Positions 7,182 through 32,839 of a stretch of DNA of 64,000 nt are shown here, one piece after another; the first letter of the stretch is position 1, and the number at the start of each line of letters is the position of its first letter. The translations under genes were made by a program, and so were the position numbers. The notes beneath the pieces are model-generated. The model searched no databases. It saw only the letters and a list, made by a program, of their open reading frames with translations, and had not been told where the DNA came from. Source of the stretch: Burkholderia pyrrocinia (GTDB taxonomy: Bacteria > Pseudomonadota > Gammaproteobacteria > Burkholderiales > Burkholderiaceae); NCBI RefSeq assembly GCF_003330765.1, contig NZ_CP024902.1:930001-994000 (forward strand), written 5' to 3'.

Positions 7182-8243
7182 ATGATCCTGGTTACGGGCG
7201 GCGCGGGTTTTATCGGTGCCAATTTTGTACTCGACTGGCTGCGCGCATCCGACGAAGCCGTGCTCAACGTTGACAAGCTGACGTACGCGGGGAACCTGCG
7301 CACACTGCAGTCGCTGGACGGGAACCCGAAGCATGTGTTTGCACGCGTCGACATCTGCGACCGTGACGCGCTCGATGCGCTGCTTGCCGAGCACAAGCCC
7401 CGTGCCGTGCTGCACTTCGCCGCCGAAAGCCACGTCGATCGCTCGATCCACGGTCCTGCGGATTTCGTGCAGACCAACGTCGTCGGCACGTTCACGCTGC
7501 TCGAGGCAACCCGTCAATACTGGAACAGCCTGAGCGACACCGACAAGGCGGCGTTCCGCTTCCTGCACGTGTCGACCGACGAGGTGTTCGGTTCGCTGTC
7601 CGCAACCGATCCGCAATTCTCCGAGACGACGCCGTACGCGCCGAACAGCCCGTATTCCGCGACGAAGGCGGGTTCGGACCATCTGGTGCGCGCGTACCAT
7701 CATACGTATGGGTTGCCGACGCTGACGACGAACTGCTCGAACAACTACGGCCCGTACCAGTTCCCCGAGAAGCTGATCCCGCTGATGATCGCGAACGCGC
7801 TTGCGGGCAAGCCGCTGCCCGTTTATGGCGATGGCCAGAACGTGCGCGACTGGCTGTACGTCGGCGATCACTGCAGCGCGATTCGCGAAGTGCTCGCGCG
7901 TGGCGTACCCGGCGAGACGTATAACGTTGGCGGCTGGAACGAGAAGAAGAACCTCGAAGTCGTGCACACGCTGTGCGATCTGCTCGACAAGGCGCGTCCG
8001 AAGGCGGCGGGTTCTTACCGCGACCAGATCACCTATGTGACGGATCGGCCCGGCCACGATCGCCGCTATGCGATCGATGCGCGCAAGCTCGAGCGCGAGC
8101 TTGGCTGGAAGCCTGCCGAAACGTTCGAGACGGGGCTTGCAAAGACGGTCGACTGGTATCTCGACAATCAGGTCTGGGCCGACGAAGTCGCATCCGGCGA
8201 GTACCGCAAGTGGGTCGAGACGAACTACGCGAAACGCGATTGA
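7182..8243 (+). CDS. rmlB: dTDP-glucose 4,6-dehydratase
   Basis: Second step of dTDP-L-rhamnose synthesis: dTDP-glucose to dTDP-4-keto-6-deoxyglucose with NAD+. The 353-residue SDR protein has the NAD motif TGGAGFIG at residues 5-12, STDEVFG with the catalytic acidic pair, and YSATKAGSD containing the YxxxK pair. It is first of the rmlBACD genes, with a strong GAGGGAG ribosome site. The four gene products supply L-rhamnose to the glycosyltransferases downstream. Confidence 0.97.
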
Positions 8244-8254
8244 GGAGAGGAGCG

Positions 8255-9148
8255 ATGGCACGTAAAGGCATCATTCTCGCCGGTGGTTCCGGCACCCGGC
8301 TGTATCCGATCACGCACGTCGTATCGAAGCAGCTGCTGCCGGTCTACGACAAGCCGATGATCTACTATCCGCTGTCGACGCTGATGATCGCGGGCATTCG
8401 CGATGTGTTGATCATCTCGACACCGCAGGACACGCCGCGCTTCGAATCGATGCTCGGCGACGGCAGCCAGTGGGGGATGAACATCCAGTATGCGGTGCAG
8501 CCGTCGCCCGATGGTCTCGCACAGGCCTTCATCATCGGCAAGGAGTTCGTCGGCAACGATCCGTCGGCGCTGATCCTCGGTGACAACATCTTCTACGGCC
8601 ACGACCTGGCGAAGCAACTCGAGCGTGCGCATGCGCAGGAAACCGGTGCGACCGTCTTTGCGTACCACGTGCATGACCCGGAGCGTTATGGCGTCGTCGA
8701 GTTCGACAAGTCGTTCCGCGCGCTGTCGATCGAAGAAAAGCCGGCCAAGCCGCGTTCGAACTATGCGGTGACCGGCCTGTACTTCTACGACAACCGCGTG
8801 TGCGACATCGCGGCCGACATCAAGCCGTCGCCGCGCGGCGAGCTGGAAATCACCGACGTGAATTCGCGGTATCTCGCTGATGGCGCGCTGAATGTCGAGA
8901 TCATGGGGCGCGGTTACGCGTGGCTCGATACCGGTACACACGATTCGCTGATCGAGGCTGCCAGCTTCATCGCGACGCTGCAGAAGCGGCAGGGCCTCGT
9001 GGTTGCGTGTCCGGAGGAAATCGCCTATCGCCGCAACTGGATCGACGCGGAGCAGGTGCTGAAGCTCGCGCAGCCGCTCGCGAAGAACGCGTACGGTCAG
9101 TACCTCAAGAACATTCTTACGGATCAAGTCGCATGGCCATCCAAGTAA
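8255..9148 (+). CDS. rmlA: glucose-1-phosphate thymidylyltransferase
   Basis: First step of the pathway: dTTP plus glucose-1-phosphate gives dTDP-glucose. The 297-residue protein opens with the nucleotidyltransferase signature [14 protein letters not shown] and carries EEKP at the sugar-binding region. It starts 11 bases after rmlB behind GAGGAGAGG. Its end overlaps the rmlC start by 16 bases, which suggests coupled translation. Confidence 0.97.
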
Positions 9149-9684
9149 CGTCGACGGCGCTGCCCGAAGTCAAGATCATCGAGCCGAAAGTGTTCGGCGA
9201 TGCACGTGGGTTCTTCTACGAAAGCTTCAACGGGAAGGAATTCGCCGAGCAGGTCGAACCCGGCGTCGAATTCGTGCAGGACAACCATTCGCGCTCGTCG
9301 AAGGGTGTGCTGCGCGGGCTGCACTATCAGGTCCAGCATGCGCAGGGCAAGCTCGTTCGCGTGGTCGAGGGCGAAGTGTTCGACGTCGCCGTCGACATTC
9401 GCAAGAGCTCGCCGAACTTCGGCAAGTGGGTGGGTGTCGTGCTGTCGAACGACAACCATCGGCAGCTGTGGGTGCCGCCCGGCTTCGCGCACGGTTTCGT
9501 CGTGCTGTCGGAGGCCGCGCAGTTTCTTTACAAGACGACCGACTACTGGTTCCCGGAGCACGAGCGCAGTATCGTGTGGAACGATCCCGAGATCGGGATC
9601 GAGTGGCCGATCGACTTCGAACCGTTGCTGGCGGCGAAGGATGCCGCGGGCAAGCGTCTGAGCGAAGCCGAAGTCTATGCGTGA
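9133..9684 (+). CDS. rmlC: dTDP-4-dehydrorhamnose 3,5-epimerase
   Basis: A 183-residue cupin-fold epimerase of the normal family length. It contains RGFFYESF near the N-terminus and the active-site region [10 protein letters not shown] with the catalytic His, followed by [17 protein letters not shown]. It inverts C3 and C5 of the 4-keto sugar. The ATG at 9133 lies inside the end of rmlA, and the end overlaps rmlD by 8 bases. Confidence 0.97.
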
Positions 9685-10576
9685 GGTAGGTGTGACTTCT
9701 GAACCGACGATTCTCGTGACAGGCGTGAACGGACAGGTCGGATTCGAGCTGCTGCGTTCGTTGCAAGGCCTGGGGCGCGTGGTGGCGTGCGATCGCTCGA
9801 TGCTCGATCTGTCCGATCTCGATCGGGTGCGCAGCGTCGTGCGCGAGCTGAAACCGTCGATCATCGTGAATCCTGCCGCCTATACGGCCGTCGACAAGGC
9901 CGAGACGGATGTCGACGCCGCGCGTCGCCTGAATACCGACGTGCCACGTGCTTTTGCGGAGGAGGCGGCGCGCCTCGGCGCAGCGCTGATTCATTACTCG
10001 ACCGACTATGTGTTCGACGGTACCAAAGAGGGTGCCTATGTCGAAACGGACGCCACTAACCCGCAGAACGTGTACGGGCTGACCAAGCTCGAAGGCGAGC
10101 AGGCCATCGCGGCGACGGGGTGCGCGCACCTGATTCTGCGCACGAGCTGGGTGTATGGGCGTCGCGGCAAGAACTTCCTGCTGACGATGCTGAAGCTCGG
10201 CAGCGAGCGTCCGGAACTGCGCGTCGTTGCGGATCAGGTCGGCGCGCCGACGTGGTCGAAGACCATCGCTACCGCGACATCGCATATCGTTGCGCAAGCC
10301 CTGGCGGCTGGCGACGCGGACTGGTGGGCGCGGCGCTCCGGCGTTTACCACTTCACGTCGGCCGGCGCGACGTCGTGGCACGGGTTTGCCGAAGCGATCT
10401 TTTCGAACGCGATGGGCGAGCGTGCGCCGAAGGTCGTGCCGATTCCGGCGAGCGACTACCCGGTGCCTGCCAAGCGTCCGTCCAATTCGCGACTGTCGCA
10501 CGACAAGCTGACCGAAGCATTCGGGTTGCGGTTGCCGGACTGGGCCGATGCGCTGAAGCTGTGCCTGAGTGAGTAA
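9677..10576 (+). CDS. rmlD: dTDP-4-dehydrorhamnose reductase
   Basis: Last step: NAD(P)H-dependent reduction to dTDP-L-rhamnose. A 299-residue SDR protein with TGVNGQVG at the N-terminus, YSTDYVFDG, and VYGLTKLEGE holding the YxxxK pair. The ATG at 9677 overlaps rmlC by 8 bases; a GTG at 9692 is an alternative start. Its stop overlaps the next gene's GTG start by 8 bases. Confidence 0.96.
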   Translation: MREVGVTSEPTILVTGVNGQVGFELLRSLQGLGRVVACDRSMLDLSDLDRVRSVVRELKPSIIVNPAAYTAVDKAETDVDAARRLNTDVPRAFAEEAARLGAALIHYSTDYVFDGTKEGAYVETDATNPQNVYGLTKLEGEQAIAATGCAHLILRTSWVYGRRGKNFLLTMLKLGSERPELRVVADQVGAPTWSKTIATATSHIVAQALAAGDADWWARRSGVYHFTSAGATSWHGFAEAIFSNAMGERAPKVVPIPASDYPVPAKRPSNSRLSHDKLTEAFGLRLPDWADALKLCLSE

Positions 10577-15061: not shown

Positions 15062-16495
15062 GTGAATATCTATCCTGTCATTTTGTGCGGGGGCAGCGGC
15101 ACCCGCTTGTGGCCCATGTCGCGCGGTGGATATCCCAAGCAGTACTTGCGGCTGACGGGGGAGCATACACTCGTCCAGCAAACGGTGCGCCGGCTGAGCG
15201 GCATCGCAAGTGTTGCCGAGCCGATTGTCATTGCAAACCAGGATCAGCGCTTTTTGGTTGCAGATCAGTTGCATGGCATAGGTGTCGCACCGGAGGCCAT
15301 CGTCCTGGAGCCGATGAAGCGCAATACGGCGCCGGCGGTTGCGGCCGCCGCGCTGATCGCTGTCGAACGATCGCCGGATGCGCTGCTGATGGTCTTGCCG
15401 TCCGACCATGTCATTCTCGATTCCGCCGCCTTCTCGGATCTGGCCTCGGCTGCTGCCGATATCGCGCGCGAAGGGTACCTCGTGACTTTCGGAATCGAGC
15501 CGACGGCTCCCCATACCGGCTATGGCTATATCCGCAGCGGCGCCGCGCTGGATGGATTCGGCGGAGCGAGCCGCGTCGACGAATTCATCGAAAAACCCGA
15601 TGCCGAAACGGCGGGGCGCTTCCTGGACCAAGGGGGGTATTACTGGAACAGCGGCATGTTCATGCTCAAGGCATCGACCTATCTGGAAGATCTGGCTCGC
15701 TATGCTCCGACGGTATTGGCACAAATCGGGCAAGCGGTTGCACAGGCCAGGCGCGATGACGATTTCATCCGATTGGAGCCGCAAGCATTTGCCTTGTGTC
15801 CCGATATCTCCATCGATTATGCAGTGATGGAAAAAACCGACCGCGCGGCGATGGTTGTTGCATCGGGCATGGGCTGGAGCGATATCGGCTCGTGGTCCGC
15901 GCTCGCTGACATCACCGAAAAGGACACGGACGGCAATTCGTTGTCGGGCGATGTGATCGCGGAGGACGTGACGAGCAGCTATATCCGGGCAGACCACCGG
16001 ATGGTAGCTGCGATCGGGTTGAAGGATACGATCGTCGTCGAAACAGCGGACGCGGTACTGGTTGCTCATCGAAGCCAGACGGAGCGCGTGAAGACGATTG
16101 TCGAGCGCCTGAACGCGTCGGGGCGGCACGAGTCTGTAACGCATCGCAAGGTTGTGCGCCCATGGGGTACCTATGAAAGCATCGATCAGGGCGAGCGTTT
16201 TCAAGTGAAGCGGATCATCGTGAATCCGGGATCGTCGCTCAGCCTGCAGATGCATCATCATCGCGCCGAACACTGGATTGTCGTGCGCGGTACGGCGCGA
16301 GTGATGAACGACGGGCGCGAGTTGTTGCTGACGGAGAATCAGTCGACCTATATTCCGCTCGGTGCGAAGCATCGGCTGGAGAACCCGGGAAAGATCCCGC
16401 TCGAACTGATCGAGGTTCAGTCAGGTGCCTATTTGAGCGAGGACGACATCGTGCGCTTTGAGGACAATTACGGACGAGACGTCAAGCCGATATAA
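15062..16495 (+). CDS. manC: mannose-1-phosphate guanylyltransferase / mannose-6-phosphate isomerase
   Basis: A 477-residue bifunctional type II enzyme producing GDP-mannose. The N-terminal domain carries CGGSGTRLWPMSR and FIEKPD. The C-terminal cupin isomerase domain carries the metal-binding QMHHHRAEHWIVV. GTG start at 15062. Neither GDP-mannose dehydratase nor a 4-reductase is found in the window, so GDP-mannose may be used directly, or converted by enzymes encoded elsewhere. The mutase at 37412 can supply mannose-1-phosphate. Confidence 0.95.
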   Translation: MNIYPVILCGGSGTRLWPMSRGGYPKQYLRLTGEHTLVQQTVRRLSGIASVAEPIVIANQDQRFLVADQLHGIGVAPEAIVLEPMKRNTAPAVAAAALIAVERSPDALLMVLPSDHVILDSAAFSDLASAAADIAREGYLVTFGIEPTAPHTGYGYIRSGAALDGFGGASRVDEFIEKPDAETAGRFLDQGGYYWNSGMFMLKASTYLEDLARYAPTVLAQIGQAVAQARRDDDFIRLEPQAFALCPDISIDYAVMEKTDRAAMVVASGMGWSDIGSWSALADITEKDTDGNSLSGDVIAEDVTSSYIRADHRMVAAIGLKDTIVVETADAVLVAHRSQTERVKTIVERLNASGRHESVTHRKVVRPWGTYESIDQGERFQVKRIIVNPGSSLSLQMHHHRAEHWIVVRGTARVMNDGRELLLTENQSTYIPLGAKHRLENPGKIPLELIEVQSGAYLSEDDIVRFEDNYGRDVKPI

Positions 16496-22406: not shown

Positions 22407-23663
22407 TCAGCTTCTCGTCAGCAAGCGCTTGAACGCACGCAGCGGCGATGTAATTCGCCAGCTTTTCGACGTCAATATTTCAATATGTGATCTGCGCATG
22501 TCGTCGAGTTCTGCTCTTGTCGTCGCCATCTTCGATCTGATATCGGCGAACGCTTCATTGGTCGAGTGCAGTTGCGCCTCGAGTTCTTCCTGTCTGTTAC
22601 GCGCGTCGTCGCGCTCGGTGTGAGCGCTTTGCAATGCATTGGACCATGCTTGCTGCTGTTGCTCCAATACGTGAATCGTCTCGTTGAGCGACGCGATTGT
22701 CGCATTCAATGTCTCGGTGGCGCGCAGGTGATCGTGGAGCGCAGCGTCGCTCGCTTGCTCGGACGCTTGTGTCAGGTGGAACTGCCGATCGAGCTGCCAT
22801 TCATATCTTAAAAGCGGCGAGATATCATCAAGATAGATACGCGCGTTTCTGGCGGCATCGGACAGCAACGTATTGTCGGCCGGAAGTTTGTTTCGCACCG
22901 ATTCGTCGAGTGCGGCAAAAAGTGCCTTTACCTGACGAGGCGCGGAGTGAAGTAAATCGAGATCCTCCGCGGCGAATCTGGTGTGTCTGAGGTCGCCGTC
23001 GATGAATTCCCTGTCGAATGTTGCCGCCTCGGACTCGATCAGCGGCAATCCCAACTCGGACGAGATTCGCGTCAATTCCGATTGAGGCGCGTCCAGCAGC
23101 GCGTCGTAACTGATGAGTGTCCGAGTGCTGCCGACAGTCATCTCGAGCGCGGAAAGCGTGTGAGTGAGCCAAAGGATATGCGATTTTTCTTCGGCGAACC
23201 GGTCGCGCTCCAGGAGCGAGCGTGCAACGCTGATCGGGTTGCGAACGGCAATGGCATACACGACACGGGATTGCAAGCTCGTGAGGACTGGTTGCCAGAA
23301 CCAGGACAGTCGGGCAATGCGCGGATCCTTGAGCGCAAAAGTCTTGCCGTCGCATTTTGCGCGAAGCATGGTTGCGGCTTTGACGCGGAGTTCATCCAGT
23401 CGATGCATGTCGATCGCGCTTGAGTTGATCGGTGCCATGGTGTCCCAGTCGAAACCCGCTGCGCGCATGACGTCGATGTTGATCTGGTTGACGTCGAGAT
23501 CTTCGAAAAATCCCTTGTCGTTGTTGCCTGCGGCTGCTGGCATAAGTCTCGAGCCGAGATCGGCACCGAGCGCTTCCATCGCACGTGTGAGAACGCTTGT
23601 ACCGCTACGGTGCATGCCGAGAACGACGATCAGGGTCGGTGGCGTGGACGAGGAATTGGGCAT
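22407..23663 (-). CDS. sulfotransferase-like protein with C-terminal coiled coil
   Basis: A 418-residue protein. The N-terminus carries the 5'-phosphosulfate loop of sulfotransferases (GMHRSGTS, residues 16-23), and RNPISVARSLLERD is a good candidate for the 3'-phosphate-binding region. Residues about 290-395 form a Gln/Glu/Asp-rich coiled coil, followed by the tail SKSWRITSPLRAFKRLL, close to the SSTSWRVTAPMR junction in the fusion protein at 16644. Sulfation of a surface glycan is the likely role; PAPS as donor is inferred. It is the only gene between 7 and 31.7 kb on the minus strand, so it is expressed separately from the rest of the locus. Confidence 0.78.
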   Translation of the reverse strand: MPNSSSTPPTLIVVLGMHRSGTSVLTRAMEALGADLGSRLMPAAAGNNDKGFFEDLDVNQINIDVMRAAGFDWDTMAPINSSAIDMHRLDELRVKAATMLRAKCDGKTFALKDPRIARLSWFWQPVLTSLQSRVVYAIAVRNPISVARSLLERDRFAEEKSHILWLTHTLSALEMTVGSTRTLISYDALLDAPQSELTRISSELGLPLIESEAATFDREFIDGDLRHTRFAAEDLDLLHSAPRQVKALFAALDESVRNKLPADNTLLSDAARNARIYLDDISPLLRYEWQLDRQFHLTQASEQASDAALHDHLRATETLNATIASLNETIHVLEQQQQAWSNALQSAHTERDDARNRQEELEAQLHSTNEAFADIRSKMATTRAELDDMRRSHIEILTSKSWRITSPLRAFKRLLTRS

Positions 23664-27079: not shown

Positions 27080-28960
27080 ATGTTGCGATCCAAGGCATCT
27101 TGGCTGTCACTGAGTGCTTTCCTGTTCGACCTGACGGCGGTTGTTGCCGCGTGGTTGTTCGCTTATCTCGTTCGTTTCAATGGCAGCGTTCCGCATGATT
27201 TCCTGAGCGGCGCGCTGATGGCACTGACATGGGTGCTGCCTGTCTACGCGCTGATGTTCCTCGGGTTCGGCCTGTATCGCGGGCTGTGGGTGTTCGCGAG
27301 CCTGCCCGACCTGATGCGCATCGCGAAGGCGGTGGTCGGCGGCGGCGTGGTCGTGATGATCGGCGCCGTGATGTTCCAGCCCGCGCCGATCATTCCGCGC
27401 TCGGTGCTGCTCGTGTCGCCGCTGATGCTGTTCCTGGCGATGGGCGGCGCACGCGCACTGTATCGCGCGACGAAGGAGTACTACCTGTACGGCGGTCTCG
27501 TCGGGAAAGGCAAGCCGGTGCTGGTGCTCGGTGCCGGCACGGCCGGCGCGAGTCTCGCGCGCGAACTGTCGCGCTCCGGTGAATGGCGCCTCGTCGGCCT
27601 GCTCGACGACGACGTCACGAAGCAGGGGCGCGAGATCTACGGCTACAAGGTGCTGGGTTCGTTCAACGACCTGAAGCACTGGACCGACGCGATGAAGGTC
27701 GAATACGCGATCATCGCGATTCCGTCGGCGTCGGTCGAGATGCAGCGTCGCGTCGCGACACTGTGCGTGCGCGCCGGCGTGAAGGCGATGGTGCTGCCTT
27801 CGTTGACCGCACTGATGCCGGGGCAGGGCTTCCTGTCGCAGGTGCGGAACATCGATCTCGAGGATTTGCTCGGCCGCGACGCCGTGACAATCGACACGCC
27901 GCACGTCGAGGCGCTGCTGCGCGGCCGCGTCGTGATGGTGACGGGCGCGGGCGGCTCGATCGGCTCCGAGCTGTGCCGGCAGATCCTGCGCTTCGCGCCG
28001 GCGCAGCTCGTCGCGTTCGACCTGTCCGAATACGCGATGTACCGGCTGACCGAGGAGTTGCGCGAGCGCTTCCCCGACTTGCCTGTCTTGCCGATCATCG
28101 GCGACGCGAAGGATTCGCTGCTGCTCGACCAGGTGATGTCGCGCCATGCGCCGCACATCGTGTTCCATGCGGCCGCTTACAAGCACGTGCCGCTGATGGA
28201 GGAGCACAACGCGTGGCAGGCGCTGCGCAACAACGTGCTCGGCACGTATCGCGTGGCCCGCGCGGCGATCCGCCACGATGTGCGTCACTTCGTGCTGATC
28301 TCGACCGACAAGGCCGTCAATCCGACCAATGTGATGGGGGCGAGCAAGCGCCTTGCCGAAATGGCCTGCCAGGCGTTGCAGCAGACGAGTGGGCGCACGC
28401 AGTTCGAGACCGTACGCTTCGGCAATGTGCTCGGCAGCGCGGGCAGCGTGATCCCGAAGTTCCAGCAGCAGATCGCGAAGGGCGGCCCGGTGACGGTCAC
28501 ACACCCGGAGATCACGCGTTTCTTCATGACGATCCCGGAAGCGTCGCAGCTCGTGCTGCAGGCGTCGAGCATGGGGCATGGCGGCGAGATCTTCATTCTC
28601 GACATGGGCGAGCCGGTGAAGATCGTCGATCTCGCGGGCGACCTGATCCGCCTGTACGGTTTCTCGGAAGACCAGATCCGCATCGAGTTCACCGGGCTGC
28701 GGCCGGGCGAGAAGCTTTACGAGGAGCTGCTGGCGGACGACGAGGCGACGACACGCACGCCGCATCCGAAACTGCGGATCGCGCGCGCGCGGGAAGTGCC
28801 GGACAACCTTCTTGACGAACTGCTGCCATGGCTGATGCAGCACCGCGTGCTGGGCGACGACGAGGTGCGGCGCGATTTGCGGCGCTGGGTGCCGGAATAT
28901 CAGACGGCCGTGGCGCCGGTGCTGCAGAGTGTGCCGAAGCGGGCCGTTGCCAGCGAGTGA
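27080..28960 (+). CDS. wbiI: WbpM/WbiI-type UDP-HexNAc 4,6-dehydratase, membrane-anchored
   Basis: A 626-residue protein of the WbpM/PglF/CapD family. Four N-terminal hydrophobic segments (about residues 10-135) are followed by a CoA-binding-like Rossmann domain (VLVLGAGTAGASLAREL), then a catalytic SDR domain with TGAGGSIGSELCRQ. The dehydratase signature STDKAVNPTNVMGASKR has Met in place of the usual SDR Tyr, as in WbpM. It converts UDP-GlcNAc to a 4-keto-6-deoxy intermediate for FucNAc/QuiNAc-type sugars. It is the last gene before a strong terminator. Confidence 0.93.
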   Translation: MLRSKASWLSLSAFLFDLTAVVAAWLFAYLVRFNGSVPHDFLSGALMALTWVLPVYALMFLGFGLYRGLWVFASLPDLMRIAKAVVGGGVVVMIGAVMFQPAPIIPRSVLLVSPLMLFLAMGGARALYRATKEYYLYGGLVGKGKPVLVLGAGTAGASLARELSRSGEWRLVGLLDDDVTKQGREIYGYKVLGSFNDLKHWTDAMKVEYAIIAIPSASVEMQRRVATLCVRAGVKAMVLPSLTALMPGQGFLSQVRNIDLEDLLGRDAVTIDTPHVEALLRGRVVMVTGAGGSIGSELCRQILRFAPAQLVAFDLSEYAMYRLTEELRERFPDLPVLPIIGDAKDSLLLDQVMSRHAPHIVFHAAAYKHVPLMEEHNAWQALRNNVLGTYRVARAAIRHDVRHFVLISTDKAVNPTNVMGASKRLAEMACQALQQTSGRTQFETVRFGNVLGSAGSVIPKFQQQIAKGGPVTVTHPEITRFFMTIPEASQLVLQASSMGHGGEIFILDMGEPVKIVDLAGDLIRLYGFSEDQIRIEFTGLRPGEKLYEELLADDEATTRTPHPKLRIARAREVPDNLLDELLPWLMQHRVLGDDEVRRDLRRWVPEYQTAVAPVLQSVPKRAVASE

Positions 28961-29311: not shown

Positions 29312-31681
29312 ATGAAAGCGGAGCATTTTGCAAGGGGAATGAGCGCGGTATTCATCGTGCTCGTGCTTGCAGGCTGCGGCGGCGACGACGACGCGAGTCC
29401 GACTGCGGCCACTGTGCAGGCCGGCAAACTGTCGGCGCTGCGAGCCGCCGGCAACGTGGTGAGTGCGGCGCCGATGAGTGCGACGGCGCCGGTCCATGTT
29501 GTGCTCGTGCTCAAGCTGAATGACGAAGCCGCGTTGAACCGCTTTCTGCAGCAAACGCGAACGCCCGGCAGTGCCAGCTTCGGGGCCGTGCTGAGCTCCG
29601 CGCAGATTGCCGGGCGATACGTGCCCACCGCCGGGCAGGTCGCCACCGTGAAGGCCTATTTGGGAAGTAAGGGCTTCACGAACGTCAAGGTGGCCGGCAA
29701 CAACATGATCGTCGAAGCCGATGCCCCGGCCAGCGTGATATCCGGCGTGTTCCAGACGACACTGGTACCGGTCGCGATGGCGGACGGCAGCAGTGCGCAT
29801 ATCAACACCACTCCGGAGACGGTGCCGGATGCGATCAGCGGGGTCGTTCGAGGGGTTCTGGGGCTGGATACCGCGACTCGCCTGCATCCGCATTTCGTGC
29901 GCGCTTCCGTTGCCGGCAGTGCGCCGACCGCAAACGCGTCGCCGACGACCGCCGCCGTCACGGTGGGCCACAATCCGACGGACTTTCCAGGCATCTATTC
30001 CGTCGGCAGCGCTCCGACGGCAGGCAATACCATGGTGGGCATCATTGCCGAAGGAGACGTGACGCAGCCCGTCATCGACCTGACGACGTTCGAAAGCAAC
30101 AACCAGTTGCCCGCCGTACCCGTTTCGGTGATCCATGCCGGCACGCCGAGCGCGGACACGAGCGGAGACACCGAATGGTCGCTCGATAGCCAGACCGTCG
30201 TCGGGATGTCCGGCGGCGTCAAGCAGCTCAATTTCTACGTTGCGCCGTCCTTCGCGTGGAGCGATATGGCGCTCGCGATCAATCGCGCCGTGACCGACAA
30301 CACCGCCCGGGTCATCAACATGTCGATCGGCGGATGCGAGAACTGGGCCCCGACGGCATCGATCGATGTACTGTTCGAACTTGCAGTCGCGCAGGGGCAG
30401 ACCTTTTCGGTCAGCTCGGGGGATTCGGGCAGCGTCGCGTACGGTTGCACCGGCACGTCGGTGCAATACCCGGCCAGCTCGCCCTATGTCGTATCCGTAG
30501 GCGGCACCACCCTCTATACGAACGGGAACGGAAGCTACGCCGGCGAGACGGCCTGGGACTCCGGTGGTGGCGGCATCAGCGGCTTCGAACCGATTCCGTC
30601 ATGGCAGTCGAACGTACCTGCGCTCAAGGGGCGAGCGTTCCGGGGCCTGCCGGACCTTGCGTTCGACGCCGACCCCAACAGTGGCGAACTGGTCGTCGTG
30701 GGCGGACAACTCGAGACGGTGGGCGGCACAAGCCTGTCCGCGCCGCTGTTTACCGCGACCTGGGCGCGCCTGCTGTCCGGCAGTTGCGCAACGAACCTCG
30801 GGTTCGCGGCGCCCACGATATACAGCTTTCAATCAACGACCGGGGCCATCTTTCGCGATATCACCAACGGCAGCAACGGCGCATACAGCGCGGGTTCGGG
30901 ATGGGACTTCGTGACTGGCTGGGGCACGCCGAACGTCAGCGTGCTGCATTCCGCGATATGCGTTCCGACGTCTCCGATCCACGGCGGCGTTATCAATGAA
31001 GGTACGACGCTCAAGTCGGGGCAAATACTGTACTCGGCGTCCGGAAGCCATGAGCTGGTCATGCAGGATGACGGCAACCTCGTGCTTTACAACACGACCA
31101 ATGGTGCCGCGGTGTGGAATTCCGGGACGCACGGAAACGCCGGAGCGTATGCCGTCTTCCAGACCGATGGCAACTTCGTGGTCTACAGCGCGAGTGGCAA
31201 GGCGCTGTGGTTCTCGTCAACCAACAGCACGTCTTATGGGCAATACCTTGCCGTACAAGACGACGGCAACATGGTGATCTACGAATCACAGGTGCCGGTA
31301 TTTTTCACAGCGACCACTACCACGGGTTATGTGAATTCGTCGAGTGGCCCGGCCCTTTGGTATGGCGGCGTCACCATCAGCAATGGCCAAAGCTTTACTT
31401 CAGGCAACGGCGCAAACGTGCTGGTCATGCAGGGCGACGGCAATCTGGTGCTGCTTCGCCAGGGCGTTCCGCAGTGGAATTCCGGTACGTCCGGTCATGC
31501 GGGCGCCTATGCCACGATGCAAACGGACGGCAATCTGGTCGTCTACAGTTCGACGCACACGCCGCTCTGGTATTCCAACACCAGCGGGAATCCGGGCGCA
31601 GTCACCTACGTTCAGGACGACGGTAACGTGGTGATCTATACGCAAGTGCCGCACTGGAGCACCAATACTACGGGAAGCTAA
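29312..31681 (+). CDS. S53 (sedolisin/kumamolisin) peptidase lipoprotein with bulb-lectin domain
   Basis: A 789-residue protein. The N-terminus is a lipoprotein signal (LVLAGC near residue 23). Residues about 60-200 match the pro-kumamolisin activation domain. The S53 catalytic domain follows: E288 and D292 in EWSLDSQ, D371 in SSGDSGS, S474 in GGTSLSAP, and the calcium-site end DFVTGWGTPN. Residues about 555-789 form mannose-binding B-lectin repeats with six QxDGNxVxY-type motifs; five are intact and one ends in Leu instead of Tyr. It should be a lipid-anchored, acid-type serine peptidase that binds mannose or rhamnose glycans. It lies alone between two polysaccharide operons. Confidence 0.9.
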   Translation: MKAEHFARGMSAVFIVLVLAGCGGDDDASPTAATVQAGKLSALRAAGNVVSAAPMSATAPVHVVLVLKLNDEAALNRFLQQTRTPGSASFGAVLSSAQIAGRYVPTAGQVATVKAYLGSKGFTNVKVAGNNMIVEADAPASVISGVFQTTLVPVAMADGSSAHINTTPETVPDAISGVVRGVLGLDTATRLHPHFVRASVAGSAPTANASPTTAAVTVGHNPTDFPGIYSVGSAPTAGNTMVGIIAEGDVTQPVIDLTTFESNNQLPAVPVSVIHAGTPSADTSGDTEWSLDSQTVVGMSGGVKQLNFYVAPSFAWSDMALAINRAVTDNTARVINMSIGGCENWAPTASIDVLFELAVAQGQTFSVSSGDSGSVAYGCTGTSVQYPASSPYVVSVGGTTLYTNGNGSYAGETAWDSGGGGISGFEPIPSWQSNVPALKGRAFRGLPDLAFDADPNSGELVVVGGQLETVGGTSLSAPLFTATWARLLSGSCATNLGFAAPTIYSFQSTTGAIFRDITNGSNGAYSAGSGWDFVTGWGTPNVSVLHSAICVPTSPIHGGVINEGTTLKSGQILYSASGSHELVMQDDGNLVLYNTTNGAAVWNSGTHGNAGAYAVFQTDGNFVVYSASGKALWFSSTNSTSYGQYLAVQDDGNMVIYESQVPVFFTATTTTGYVNSSSGPALWYGGVTISNGQSFTSGNGANVLVMQGDGNLVLLRQGVPQWNSGTSGHAGAYATMQTDGNLVVYSSTHTPLWYSNTSGNPGAVTYVQDDGNVVIYTQVPHWSTNTTGS

Positions 31682-31697: not shown

Positions 31698-31735
31698 TGA
31701 GCGGGCTTTGAGTTCGATTGGCGACAGCCCGCTCA
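31698..31735. terminator. possible hairpin between convergent genes
   Basis: TGAGCGGGCT (31698-31707) pairs perfectly with AGCCCGCTCA (31726-31735) around an 18-base loop. It sits between the peptidase stop and the end of the minus-strand transferase gene. There is no T run, so factor-independent termination is doubtful. Confidence 0.35.
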
Positions 31736-32839
31736 ATGCCCACGCCGCTCCTTCCTCACCACCATCCACCTCGGCACCCTGAACCGCACGATGCTGAGGT
31801 ACAGCCACACATAGGTCAGTGCAAACAGCACCACAAACACGAACAGGTGCACCGTGTGTCGCCAGAACAGCGTCGCGGGTATCACCGCGACGAGGCACAG
31901 CAGCCACAGGTACGGCGACGTCAGCGAATTGCGCCGCGTCAGGTCATGTGCATGCTTCGTCCCCACAGCCCAGCGCATCAGCCGCTTGTACACGAGCATG
32001 TGCAGGTGCACACCGTCCGGAATGCCGGGCGACATCCCGCGGATGAACTTCTTTCGGTAGATCGAGAAGCAGGTCTCGAAGATCGGATACATGAACAGCA
32101 GCACCGGGTACCACGCGGACACCTCGCGGTTGCGCATCACCAGCAGGATCGCGAGCTCCGCGAGCATGAAGCCGATGAAATACGCGCCGCCGTCGCCGAG
32201 GAAGATCAGCCCGGCCGGGAAATTCCACAGGAAGAAGCCGAGCACGGCCCCCATCATGATGATCGACGCGGACATCACGACCGGGTCGTTCACGTGAAAC
32301 GCGACATACGCGAGCGACGCGAACATCATGAAGCTGACCATCGACGCGAGCCCGTTGAAGCCGTCGATGATGTTGATCGCATTCGCCAGCGCCGCAACCG
32401 CGAGCACCGTGATGAACGCAGAGATGGCGACATACCCGAGCAGGAAATCGAGCGGCGGCACGCTGATGCGCTTGACCGCGATCCCCATCAGCCAGAACGC
32501 GAGCGCGGCCGCACCCATCGTGCAGAGCAGCCGCGCGCGCGGCGACACGCGCTTGGTCAGGTCCTCGACGAGGCCGGACAGGAACGCCGGCAGCCCGCAG
32601 GCGGCGATGCCCAGAATGCTGCCGGCGATCGTCGGATAGCGCCGGGACAGGATCAGCGCGGCAATGACGACCCCGGCGAGGATCCCGATGCCCCCGACCC
32701 GCGGCACGGGCCGCACGTGGAATTTCTGCACGCCGGCCAGGTCGCTGTCGATCGAGAATTTCTCGTGAAGGTGCGCGTAGCGCACGATGAACAGCGTGAC
32801 GAGCAGGGAGGCAATGAAGCCGGACGCGAAGCTGAGCAT
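31733..32839 (-). CDS. second WecA-like undecaprenyl-phosphate sugar-1-phosphate transferase
   Basis: A 368-residue MraY/WecA-family membrane enzyme with about eleven hydrophobic segments. Motifs: PVPRVGGIGI near the N-terminus, NAINIIDGFNGLA, FLGDGGAYFIGF, and the substrate loop DGVHLHMLVYKRLM. It resembles WecA-like UDP-GlcNAc/GalNAc transferases and is clearly different from WbiH (26051-27067). It is last in the minus-strand operon wzx-GT2-GT4-galE. Having its own initiating transferase fits a second Wzx-dependent glycan. Confidence 0.88.
   Translation of the reverse strand: MLSFASGFIASLLVTLFIVRYAHLHEKFSIDSDLAGVQKFHVRPVPRVGGIGILAGVVIAALILSRRYPTIAGSILGIAACGLPAFLSGLVEDLTKRVSPRARLLCTMGAAALAFWLMGIAVKRISVPPLDFLLGYVAISAFITVLAVAALANAINIIDGFNGLASMVSFMMFASLAYVAFHVNDPVVMSASIIMMGAVLGFFLWNFPAGLIFLGDGGAYFIGFMLAELAILLVMRNREVSAWYPVLLFMYPIFETCFSIYRKKFIRGMSPGIPDGVHLHMLVYKRLMRWAVGTKHAHDLTRRNSLTSPYLWLLCLVAVIPATLFWRHTVHLFVFVVLFALTYVWLYLSIVRFRVPRWMVVRKERRGH

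Follow-up and report, generated by a model that had tools for sequence, protein, structure and literature searches.

A predicted sedolisin–bulb lectin lipoprotein encoded at a variable site in the O-antigen clusters of Burkholderia

To what might a peptidase be held when it carries a lectin of its own? The question is raised by a stretch of 64,000 nucleotides from Burkholderia pyrrocinia (contig NZ_CP024902.1, positions 930,001 to 994,000; here termed the window), in which a gene within an O-antigen cluster encodes a predicted lipoprotein that joins a peptidase of the sedolisin family (S53) to a tandem of mannose-binding bulb lectin (MMBL, or B-lectin) domains. Lectin tandems of the LlpA type are known as bacteriocins. 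Here the same module is likely to be the grip of a peptidase, and it is encoded beside genes for sugars that it may bind. The reading that we favor, with a probability of about 0.4, is that of a surface sedolisin with two successive anchors, a private, cell-bound acid peptidase on the O-polysaccharide of its own producer. With this fusion one can ask directly whether a bacterium's own O-antigen serves to keep its exoenzymes private, and whether lectin modules come under selection when the O-antigen switches.

Architecture and mosaic structure of the fusion gene

The original prediction, made from the sequence alone, had described an S53 peptidase with a lipobox and a bulb lectin, and each of these parts is borne out. 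The open reading frame (ORF) of 789 amino acids has a lipobox, LAG-C, of which the cysteine is Cys22 with Gly at +2, followed by matches to the activation domain PF09286, to sedolisin (1ga1, among the best solved relatives; residues 215–546, 257.8 bits) and to B_lectin PF01453 (49.7 bits against a Pfam cut-off of 32.4). It is not a chance frame, a possibility that was ruled out because the ORF is conserved in 11 other genomes at 75–88% identity to the home copy. There are 13 intact copies in 12 genomes, G033 having two. The order of lipobox, propeptide, peptidase and lectin is common to all 13, and the lipobox is present in each. To judge from its sequence, the protein is probably lipid-anchored.

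In the alignment with 1ga1 the residues E288, D292, D371 and S474, which had been put forward as a complete catalytic set, lie opposite the catalytic and oxyanion residues of sedolisin, and they are invariant in 13 of 13 copies. An inactive peptidase was rejected on these grounds. D516 and D532 also align to aspartates in 1ga1, and both fall in nearly invariant columns; presumably they correspond to the calcium site near the C-terminus of the S53 domain.

All six of the predicted QxDGNxVxY-type lectin motifs were found, starting at residues 585, 617, 649, 707, 737 and 768. Five of these end in Tyr in the home copy, and the fourth, at 707, ends in Leu. The Q, D, N and V positions are retained in every motif of all 13 copies. 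The last residue of motif 707 is Leu in 12 of them and Ala in the copy from G011, where one further Tyr is replaced by Phe. The best solved relatives of the lectin part are putidacin L1 and pyocins L1 and L2, and an AlphaFold model of the lectin alone, with a mean predicted local distance difference test (pLDDT) score of 82.6, matched tandem and single MMBL structures. The full-length model was poor (mean pLDDT 53.6), and the fold search made with it is used as support only.

The home copy is a mosaic at the level of DNA. It is 97–98% identical to the copy of G006 around residues 46–166, falling to 72–83% from residue 646 on, while identity to the copy of G034 is 72–88% in windows to residue 686 and 92–96% beyond. 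The best split, over 449 informative sites, lies after residue 661 (281:93 against 11:64, chi-square 100.4), and none of 1000 shuffles reached this value, the highest giving 16.5. Together, the shift of identity and the split show that the home copy took part in an exchange that spans the C-terminal lectin domain; its lectin part has thus been exchanged separately from its peptidase part. Tests of groupings gave a mixed outcome, and the mosaic claim therefore rests mainly on the DNA. Two groupings of the peptidase tree were not rejected by the lectin data (p 0.36 and 0.26), and one starred lectin clade was not rejected by the peptidase data (p 0.20). The peptidase data did reject two other groups (p 0.0019 and 2e-5), which had been named after the lectin tree or the identity table had been seen.

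Among the folded domains, conservation over all copies is lowest in the N-terminal lectin (mean identity 0.73) and rises through the C-terminal lectin (0.785) and the propeptide (0.815) to S53 (0.825). The median ratio of nonsynonymous to synonymous substitution (dN/dS), calculated from 65–66 pairs of 12 copies with that of G011 left out, is lowest for S53 (0.148), followed by the C-terminal lectin (0.181), the propeptide (0.207) and the N-terminal lectin (0.213). Greater rpoB identity is not accompanied by greater identity of the peptidase (Spearman −0.24) or of the lectin (0.13).

The site and its glycan genes

The full fusion is present in 12 of 65 Burkholderia genomes, and every listed copy lies between the genes in the wbiI and wecA positions. 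The wbiI-position flank was matched at E 1e-150 in 64 of the genomes (partially in two), and the wecA-position flank was found in all 65. The interval between them is empty in 40 genomes, where the flank matches are at most 240 bp apart; it holds other cargo in nine, much of it related to glycans, and G035 has a gap of 432 bp without a recognised domain. In G003, G029 and G040 the flanks are not on the same contig, or one is missing. We read the fusion gene as cargo of a variable site within the O-antigen cluster.

Besides the fusion, or in its place, the site is occupied by acyltransferases (G006, G019 and G058), gmd with an epimerase-type gene (G051), a glycosyltransferase with an epimerase (G012; G044 has ORFs of similar size, matched by size only), a SIS/GATase protein (G055; an ORF in G024 is matched by equal length only), two GT2 proteins with a polysialyltransferase-like protein (G027) and a PIN protein (G016). 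Weak matches below cut-off were obtained to a sulfotransferase (G036) and to GT22/PMT (G021). In G006, G033 and G039 the copies are accompanied by wecA debris, which lies between or next to them, and G036 retains remnants of a decayed fusion gene, signs that point to turnover by recombination with the flanks.

Does the fusion follow the type of O-antigen? We compared fifteen window proteins at three identity thresholds (45 tests) in 60 of the 65 genomes, using up to 20 kb upstream of wbiI; G003, G024, G025, G029 and G040 were left out, and for G044 and G057 the stretch is only about 10.5–11 kb long. At 40% identity, 11 of 12 carriers have manC, as do 13 of 48 non-carriers (Fisher p 6.6e-5, or about 0.003 allowing for the 45 tests). 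The association holds when descent is taken into account, with a likelihood ratio (LR) of 22.1 (p 2.0e-4) in a Pagel-type test on 58 tips. An rmd-type gene in the cluster behaves similarly (9 of 12 against 9 of 46, LR 21.3, p 2.8e-4), and the controls rmlB, rmlD and wzm gave p values of 0.46, 0.85 and 0.78. In an earlier run on 59 tips the p values were 1.3e-4 (manC), 0.019 (a second rmd copy genome-wide) and 0.83 (rmlC). The fusion undergoes at least 10 changes of state on the rpoB tree, and none of 14,923 simulated histories with 9–15 carriers reached the observed share of manC. A gt2 glycosyltransferase gene is linked negatively to the fusion (Fisher p 0.006; Pagel-type p 0.015). The original prediction had set a tie to O-antigen type against occurrence at the same site regardless of that type. 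The site is indeed the same in 12 of 12 carriers, yet the fusion is not indifferent to the manC content of the cluster, and the tie is supported.

In a wider scan, with 2,398 ORF queries from the same upstream stretches (one-sided Fisher, uncorrected), manC ranks first (p 3.7e-5). All 24 manC matches are free of stops and have the isomerase motif. The exact string of the nucleotidyl motif is absent in four, all of them from non-carriers, in one case because the stretch ends inside the gene. There are two manC lineages, of 73–100% and 45–48% identity to the home manC, and the fusion accompanies both. The gmd gene (TIGR01472) is present in 9 of 12 carriers and 11 of 48 non-carriers, and an rmd-type reductase, for which the nearest named solved enzymes are the GDP-6-deoxy-D-mannose reductases 6x3b and 2pk3, in 9 of 12 and 10 of 48. 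Genome-wide, a second rmd-type copy is found in 11 of 12 carriers compared with 22 of 53 others.

No link to the fusion was found for rmlA, rmlB or rmlC at any threshold (rmlC at 40%, 9 of 12 against 33 of 48). At 75% there were unadjusted p values of 0.024 for rmlD (6 of 12 against 8 of 48) and 0.049 for an NAD-epimerase gene (10 of 12 against 23 of 48). The rmlABCD genes make dTDP-L-rhamnose. The genes linked to the fusion are those of the route to GDP-mannose and GDP-D-rhamnose, not those of the L-rhamnose route, which was rejected as the linked one on the outcome of the Fisher and Pagel-type tests. For pyocin L1 and putidacin L1, millimolar binding of D-rhamnose and weaker binding of D-mannose are reported, and binding of L-rhamnose was not observed (PMC3916391). 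D-rhamnose as a ligand counts in favor of a peptidase held on the producer's own glycan. In the original prediction the flanking genes had been read as making GDP-mannose and dTDP-rhamnose glycans. The tie to O-antigen was right, but the rhamnose named was the wrong one: the LlpA lectins tested bind the D form and not the L form (PMC3916391).

Other features of these clusters and of the site may be recorded here. An HldE-like heptose kinase/adenylyltransferase gene is present in the O-antigen stretch of six carriers (for example L083:11952-13529 and L112:11739-13217, both on the minus strand). The occupant of the site in G020 (L055:4577-6595, minus strand) is a tailspike-like protein of 673 amino acids, in which an S74 endosialidase-chaperone domain was recognised together with a pectate-lyase-like match too weak to reach the cut-off. 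In the window a weak sulfotransferase-like gene, likewise below the cut-off, runs antiparallel within the O-antigen cluster (22407-23663, minus strand).

Where the peptidase may be held

S53 enzymes carry an N-terminal propeptide that is removed on activation. Since the lipidated cysteine would precede the propeptide, the peptidase would come away from the membrane on processing, and its only remaining hold would be the lectin. The lipobox suggests that a lipidated zymogen would first be retained in the envelope. The lipid-carrying propeptide would then be removed, as the biochemistry of S53 enzymes leads one to expect, and the catalytic domain and lectin would lose their membrane anchor. Cleavage would be expected at the linker of residues 188–216, the variability of which fits such processing. 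Finally, the multivalent lectin tandem would hold the mature peptidase on the D-mannose/D-rhamnose O-polysaccharide of the producer, a step that the co-occurrence supports. The enzyme might serve to digest nutrient proteins, or to strip off hostile proteins that bind the surface. There is a precedent for a lipid-held surface protease that releases itself in NalP of Neisseria meningitidis, a serine protease freed by self-cleavage (PMC5472700). NalP differs in being a subtilisin-like autotransporter, and no lectin is mentioned in the accessible part of that account.

The co-occurrence with manC suggests an enzyme that holds on to the sugar coat of its own producer, and the lipobox together with the producer's own glycan genes favors self-tethering. 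The glycan genes among the other occupants of the site (acyltransferase, gmd, glycosyltransferase and epimerase) also count for this. In G039 the neighbor of the S53 fusion is an ORF of 744 amino acids, which encodes a lipobox and an S8 subtilase domain (177.5 bits) and, at the C-terminus, two successive B-lectin domains bearing five motifs. More tentatively, we suggest an exchange of anchors, in which the lipid would hold the inactive form only and the lectin would then take over on the D-mannose/D-rhamnose O-polysaccharide made by the same gene cluster; S53 and S8 enzymes would have been joined to the same type of lectin at one cargo site, with the lectin reshuffled as the glycans change. 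That the peptidase would be detached from its lipid is consistent with the variable linker, with an S8 enzyme that likewise has both lipobox and lectin, and with the link to the glycan genes of the producer itself.

A number of observations weigh against a peptidase held on its producer's own O-polysaccharide. The association depends on manC homologues of about 45% identity: the distant lineage is the one that most carriers have, and at 60% or more the counts fall to 3 of 12 carriers against 5 of 48 non-carriers (p 0.19). In the wider scan two further genes are linked about as strongly as manC, those for an ABC ATPase (7 of 12 against 2 of 48) and for the HldE-like kinase (6 of 12 against 1 of 48), and one cluster type is common to six carriers. 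When the seven genomes with an HldE-like gene are set aside, the manC link is weaker (5 of 6 against 13 of 47, p 0.014). Shared transfer is possible, as no more than 20 kb separates the fusion from the glycan genes, and part of the link may come from the transfer of one cluster type. An independent-pairs test (treekit), of low power with six usable pairs, gave on average 2.8 same and 0.6 opposite for manC and 3.3 and 0.2 for rmlC, so that with these few pairs the two are not separated. G039 has the fusion without manC in the cluster or a second rmd. Within 20 kb, the home cluster has manC, but neither gmd nor rmd was matched there. Elsewhere in the home genome gmd is found together with an rmd-type gene on contig 2 and also on contig 1 at 810–812 kb; the latter group lies about 150 kb away from the fusion, close to an ABC transporter pair and a second manC. 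Pfam finds no propeptide in the S8 fusion of G039, and the order of lipobox before propeptide is therefore not established for that protein. Lastly, an S53-like protein with a tandem B-lectin is encoded on a plasmid of Curtobacterium, a Gram-positive host with no O-antigen, and the combination is thus not tied to O-antigen everywhere.

Could the lectin be directed at other cells? It would then dock the peptidase on the D-mannose/D-rhamnose lipopolysaccharide (LPS) of related competitors, whose surface proteins would be cut, and the protein would be a protease-armed relative of LlpA. We think this rather unlikely. Among solved bacterial proteins the lectin tandem is nearest to putidacin L1 and the pyocins, and pyocin L1 uses the D-rhamnose LPS of susceptible kin (PMC3916391). 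Burkholderia LlpA is reported to kill other strains of the Burkholderia cepacia complex (PMC3831624), and albusin B, in which a B-lectin is joined to a peptidase, is a bacteriocin (PMC6240691, PMC6465234). The lipobox, in contrast, would be expected to retain the product at first, and the fusion gene tracks the glycan genes of its producer, although kin that were targets would share these. The N-terminal lectin domain is reported to set the target range of LlpA (PMC3585409) and is the folded domain that varies most in the fusion. The distribution of the fusion is patchy, with at least 10 changes of state, which also speaks for antagonism. However, LlpA-BW requires a C-terminal extension, and this is missing in 13 of 13 copies, all of which end within eight residues of the last Trp; Xanthomonas LlpA has no such extension either (PMC3585409). 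No obvious immunity-type gene lies between wbiI and wecA in the home copy, though LlpAs are reported to need none (PMC6240691).

It is also unlikely, in our view, that the fusion is merely carried at a site of O-antigen recombination, with the manC link arising from shared transfer and the lectin binding cepacian, or host or fungal mannans. Cepacian does contain D-mannose and D-rhamnose (PMC3584063), and at least one rmd-type gene is present in 63 of 65 genomes. The variety of occupants fits a passenger, as do the wecA debris beside the copies, which points to insertion by recombination, the other genes of one cluster type that are linked as strongly as manC, and the failure of peptidase and lectin identity to rise with that of rpoB. 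Yet no positive link is seen for rmlA–C, for wzm or for most of the remaining genes in the same 20 kb, rmlD and the NAD-epimerase gene at 75% being the exceptions. Moreover, two lineages of manC both accompany the fusion, and the link persists, if more weakly, without the HldE-type clusters. Together, antagonism and passage carry about the same weight as the model of a peptidase on its own O-polysaccharide.

It is very improbable that the peptidase fold serves as an idle scaffold, in the manner of the umbrella toxins of Streptomyces, whose UmbA lectins likewise combine a protease fold with lectins, since the weak sequence and fold match to UmbA4 (9oee), which extends into the lectin part, and the trypsin-like domain without a full triad of S. 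coelicolor UmbA, part of a large particle (PMC11062931), are set against four invariant active-site residues, the lowest dN/dS of the four domains, and nothing resembling a toxin particle among the Pfam-scanned neighbors of the site (UmbB and UmbC were not searched for). An umbrella-type protein was rejected because of the intact S53 active site.

Relatives of the fusion protein

The fusion shares its propeptide and active-site residues with the sedolisin and kumamolisin peptidases (MEROPS S53), the closest solved structure being Pseudomonas sedolisin 1ga1. It differs from them in the lipobox ahead of the propeptide and in the C-terminal lectin tandem. Both are missing at 21 of 21 lectin-less S53 paralogue loci in the genus, in which lectin motifs were not found and the 45 residues counted from the assumed start contain no lipobox. 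These loci are not independent, as 19 of the 21 are of one orthologous type with a common N-terminal sequence, and the start at L004 is uncertain.

The tandem MMBL domains with QxDxNxVxY motifs are shared with the LlpA bacteriocins (putidacin L1, pyocins L1 and L2 and Burkholderia LlpA). Five motifs are fully canonical in the home copy, compared with three in each of two LlpA-like proteins examined. LlpA bacteriocins kill related strains, with D-rhamnose and BamA as receptors. They have two MMBL domains only, in about 256–290 amino acids, whereas the home protein is far longer and has a peptidase and a lipobox. Membership of LlpA was rejected, the match to NCBIfam LLB_putidacin (NF033557) being 180.3 bits, below the cut-off of 275, and the C-terminal extension being absent. 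Albusin B of Ruminococcus albus resembles the fusion in joining a B-lectin to a peptidase, but this is of family M15, the lectin is N-terminal and the organism is Gram-positive. The protein from Curtobacterium plasmid D40 (WP_111027664.1) has an S53-like part followed by a tandem B-lectin (B_lectin 44.6 bits), with 29% identity over 805 alignment columns. It differs in its Gram-positive host and Pro-rich linker, the propeptide match is 20.1 against a cut-off of 23.5, and it is annotated as a hypothetical protein. In the accessible literature on S53, sedolisin or other peptidases with B-lectin or MMBL domains we recognised no description of the fusion, although the review by Ghequire, Loris and De Mot (2012) may mention it. 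The S53 and S8 enzymes add to the known B-lectin/peptidase fusions.

Features of the fusion gene, its surroundings and related loci. Positions are those of the window unless a locus is named.
Feature	Position	Strand	Basis or remark
S53-MMBL fusion gene	29312..31681	+	789 aa, ATG start, predicted lipoprotein
Lipoprotein signal, residues 1-22, lipobox LAG-C	29312..29377	+	Sequence; lipobox in 13/13 copies
Pro-kumamolisin activation (propeptide) domain, residues 51-187	29462..29872	+	PF09286 85.2 bits, cut-off 23.5
Variable linker, residues 188-216	29873..29959	+	Invariant positions 4/29, mean identity 0.665
S53 sedolisin catalytic domain, residues 217-549 (our division)	29960..30958	+	1ga1 257.8 bits; E288, D292, D371, S474
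N-terminal MMBL domain, residues 564-675	31001..31336	+	Motifs at 585, 617, 649
C-terminal MMBL domain, residues 676-789	31337..31678	+	Motifs at 707, 737, 768; exchanged by recombination in home copy
Left flank, Polysacc_synt_2 nucleotide-sugar epimerase/dehydratase (wbiI position)	27080..28960	+	PF02719 402.8 bits
Right flank, Glycos_transf_4 (wecA position)	31733..32839	-	PF00953 113.6 bits
manC, mannose-1-phosphate guanylyltransferase/mannose-6-phosphate isomerase	15062..16495	+	TIGR01479 687.2 bits
rmlB, rmlA, rmlC, rmlD (dTDP-L-rhamnose), same-locus controls	7182..10576	+	Each above NCBIfam equivalog cut-off
S8 subtilase-lectin ORF, G039	L059:4281-6515	+	Adjoins S53 fusion gene
Second manC, gmd, ABC-transporter pair, home genome	L240:4125-13693		About 150 kb from fusion gene
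Curtobacterium S53-like/tandem B-lectin gene	L242:3761-6238	+	Plasmid

In a sample of 369 genomes of the class the full fusion was found at E 1e-40 in the home genome only; four other genomes matched the peptidase part, with no lectin motif in the stretch examined. Phage matches of the lectin came from four Pseudomonas records, at 31–38% identity.

The lectin tandem was matched in 58 of 398 genomes of the family. We inspected 18 lectin loci other than those of the S53 fusion, of which 17 gave a motif-bearing frame, and six of these were scanned with Pfam. The six comprise LlpA-like, single-domain, GDSL-lipase and N-terminal-lectin proteins, and no peptidase was found in them. Two loci, L154 (G358) and L155 (G061), encode LlpA-like tandem lectins in frames of 289 and 280 amino acids, respectively, with the C-terminal extension present. 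Small single-domain MMBL frames with three canonical motifs each are found at L156, L157 and L158 (G021, G048 and G176). In frames of about 1100 amino acids at L159 and L160 the MMBL match lies near the N-terminus, with no other Pfam match in the part examined. L163 and L166, from other Burkholderiaceae, encode GDSL lipases with a C-terminal MMBL match, which at L163 is below the Pfam cut-off.

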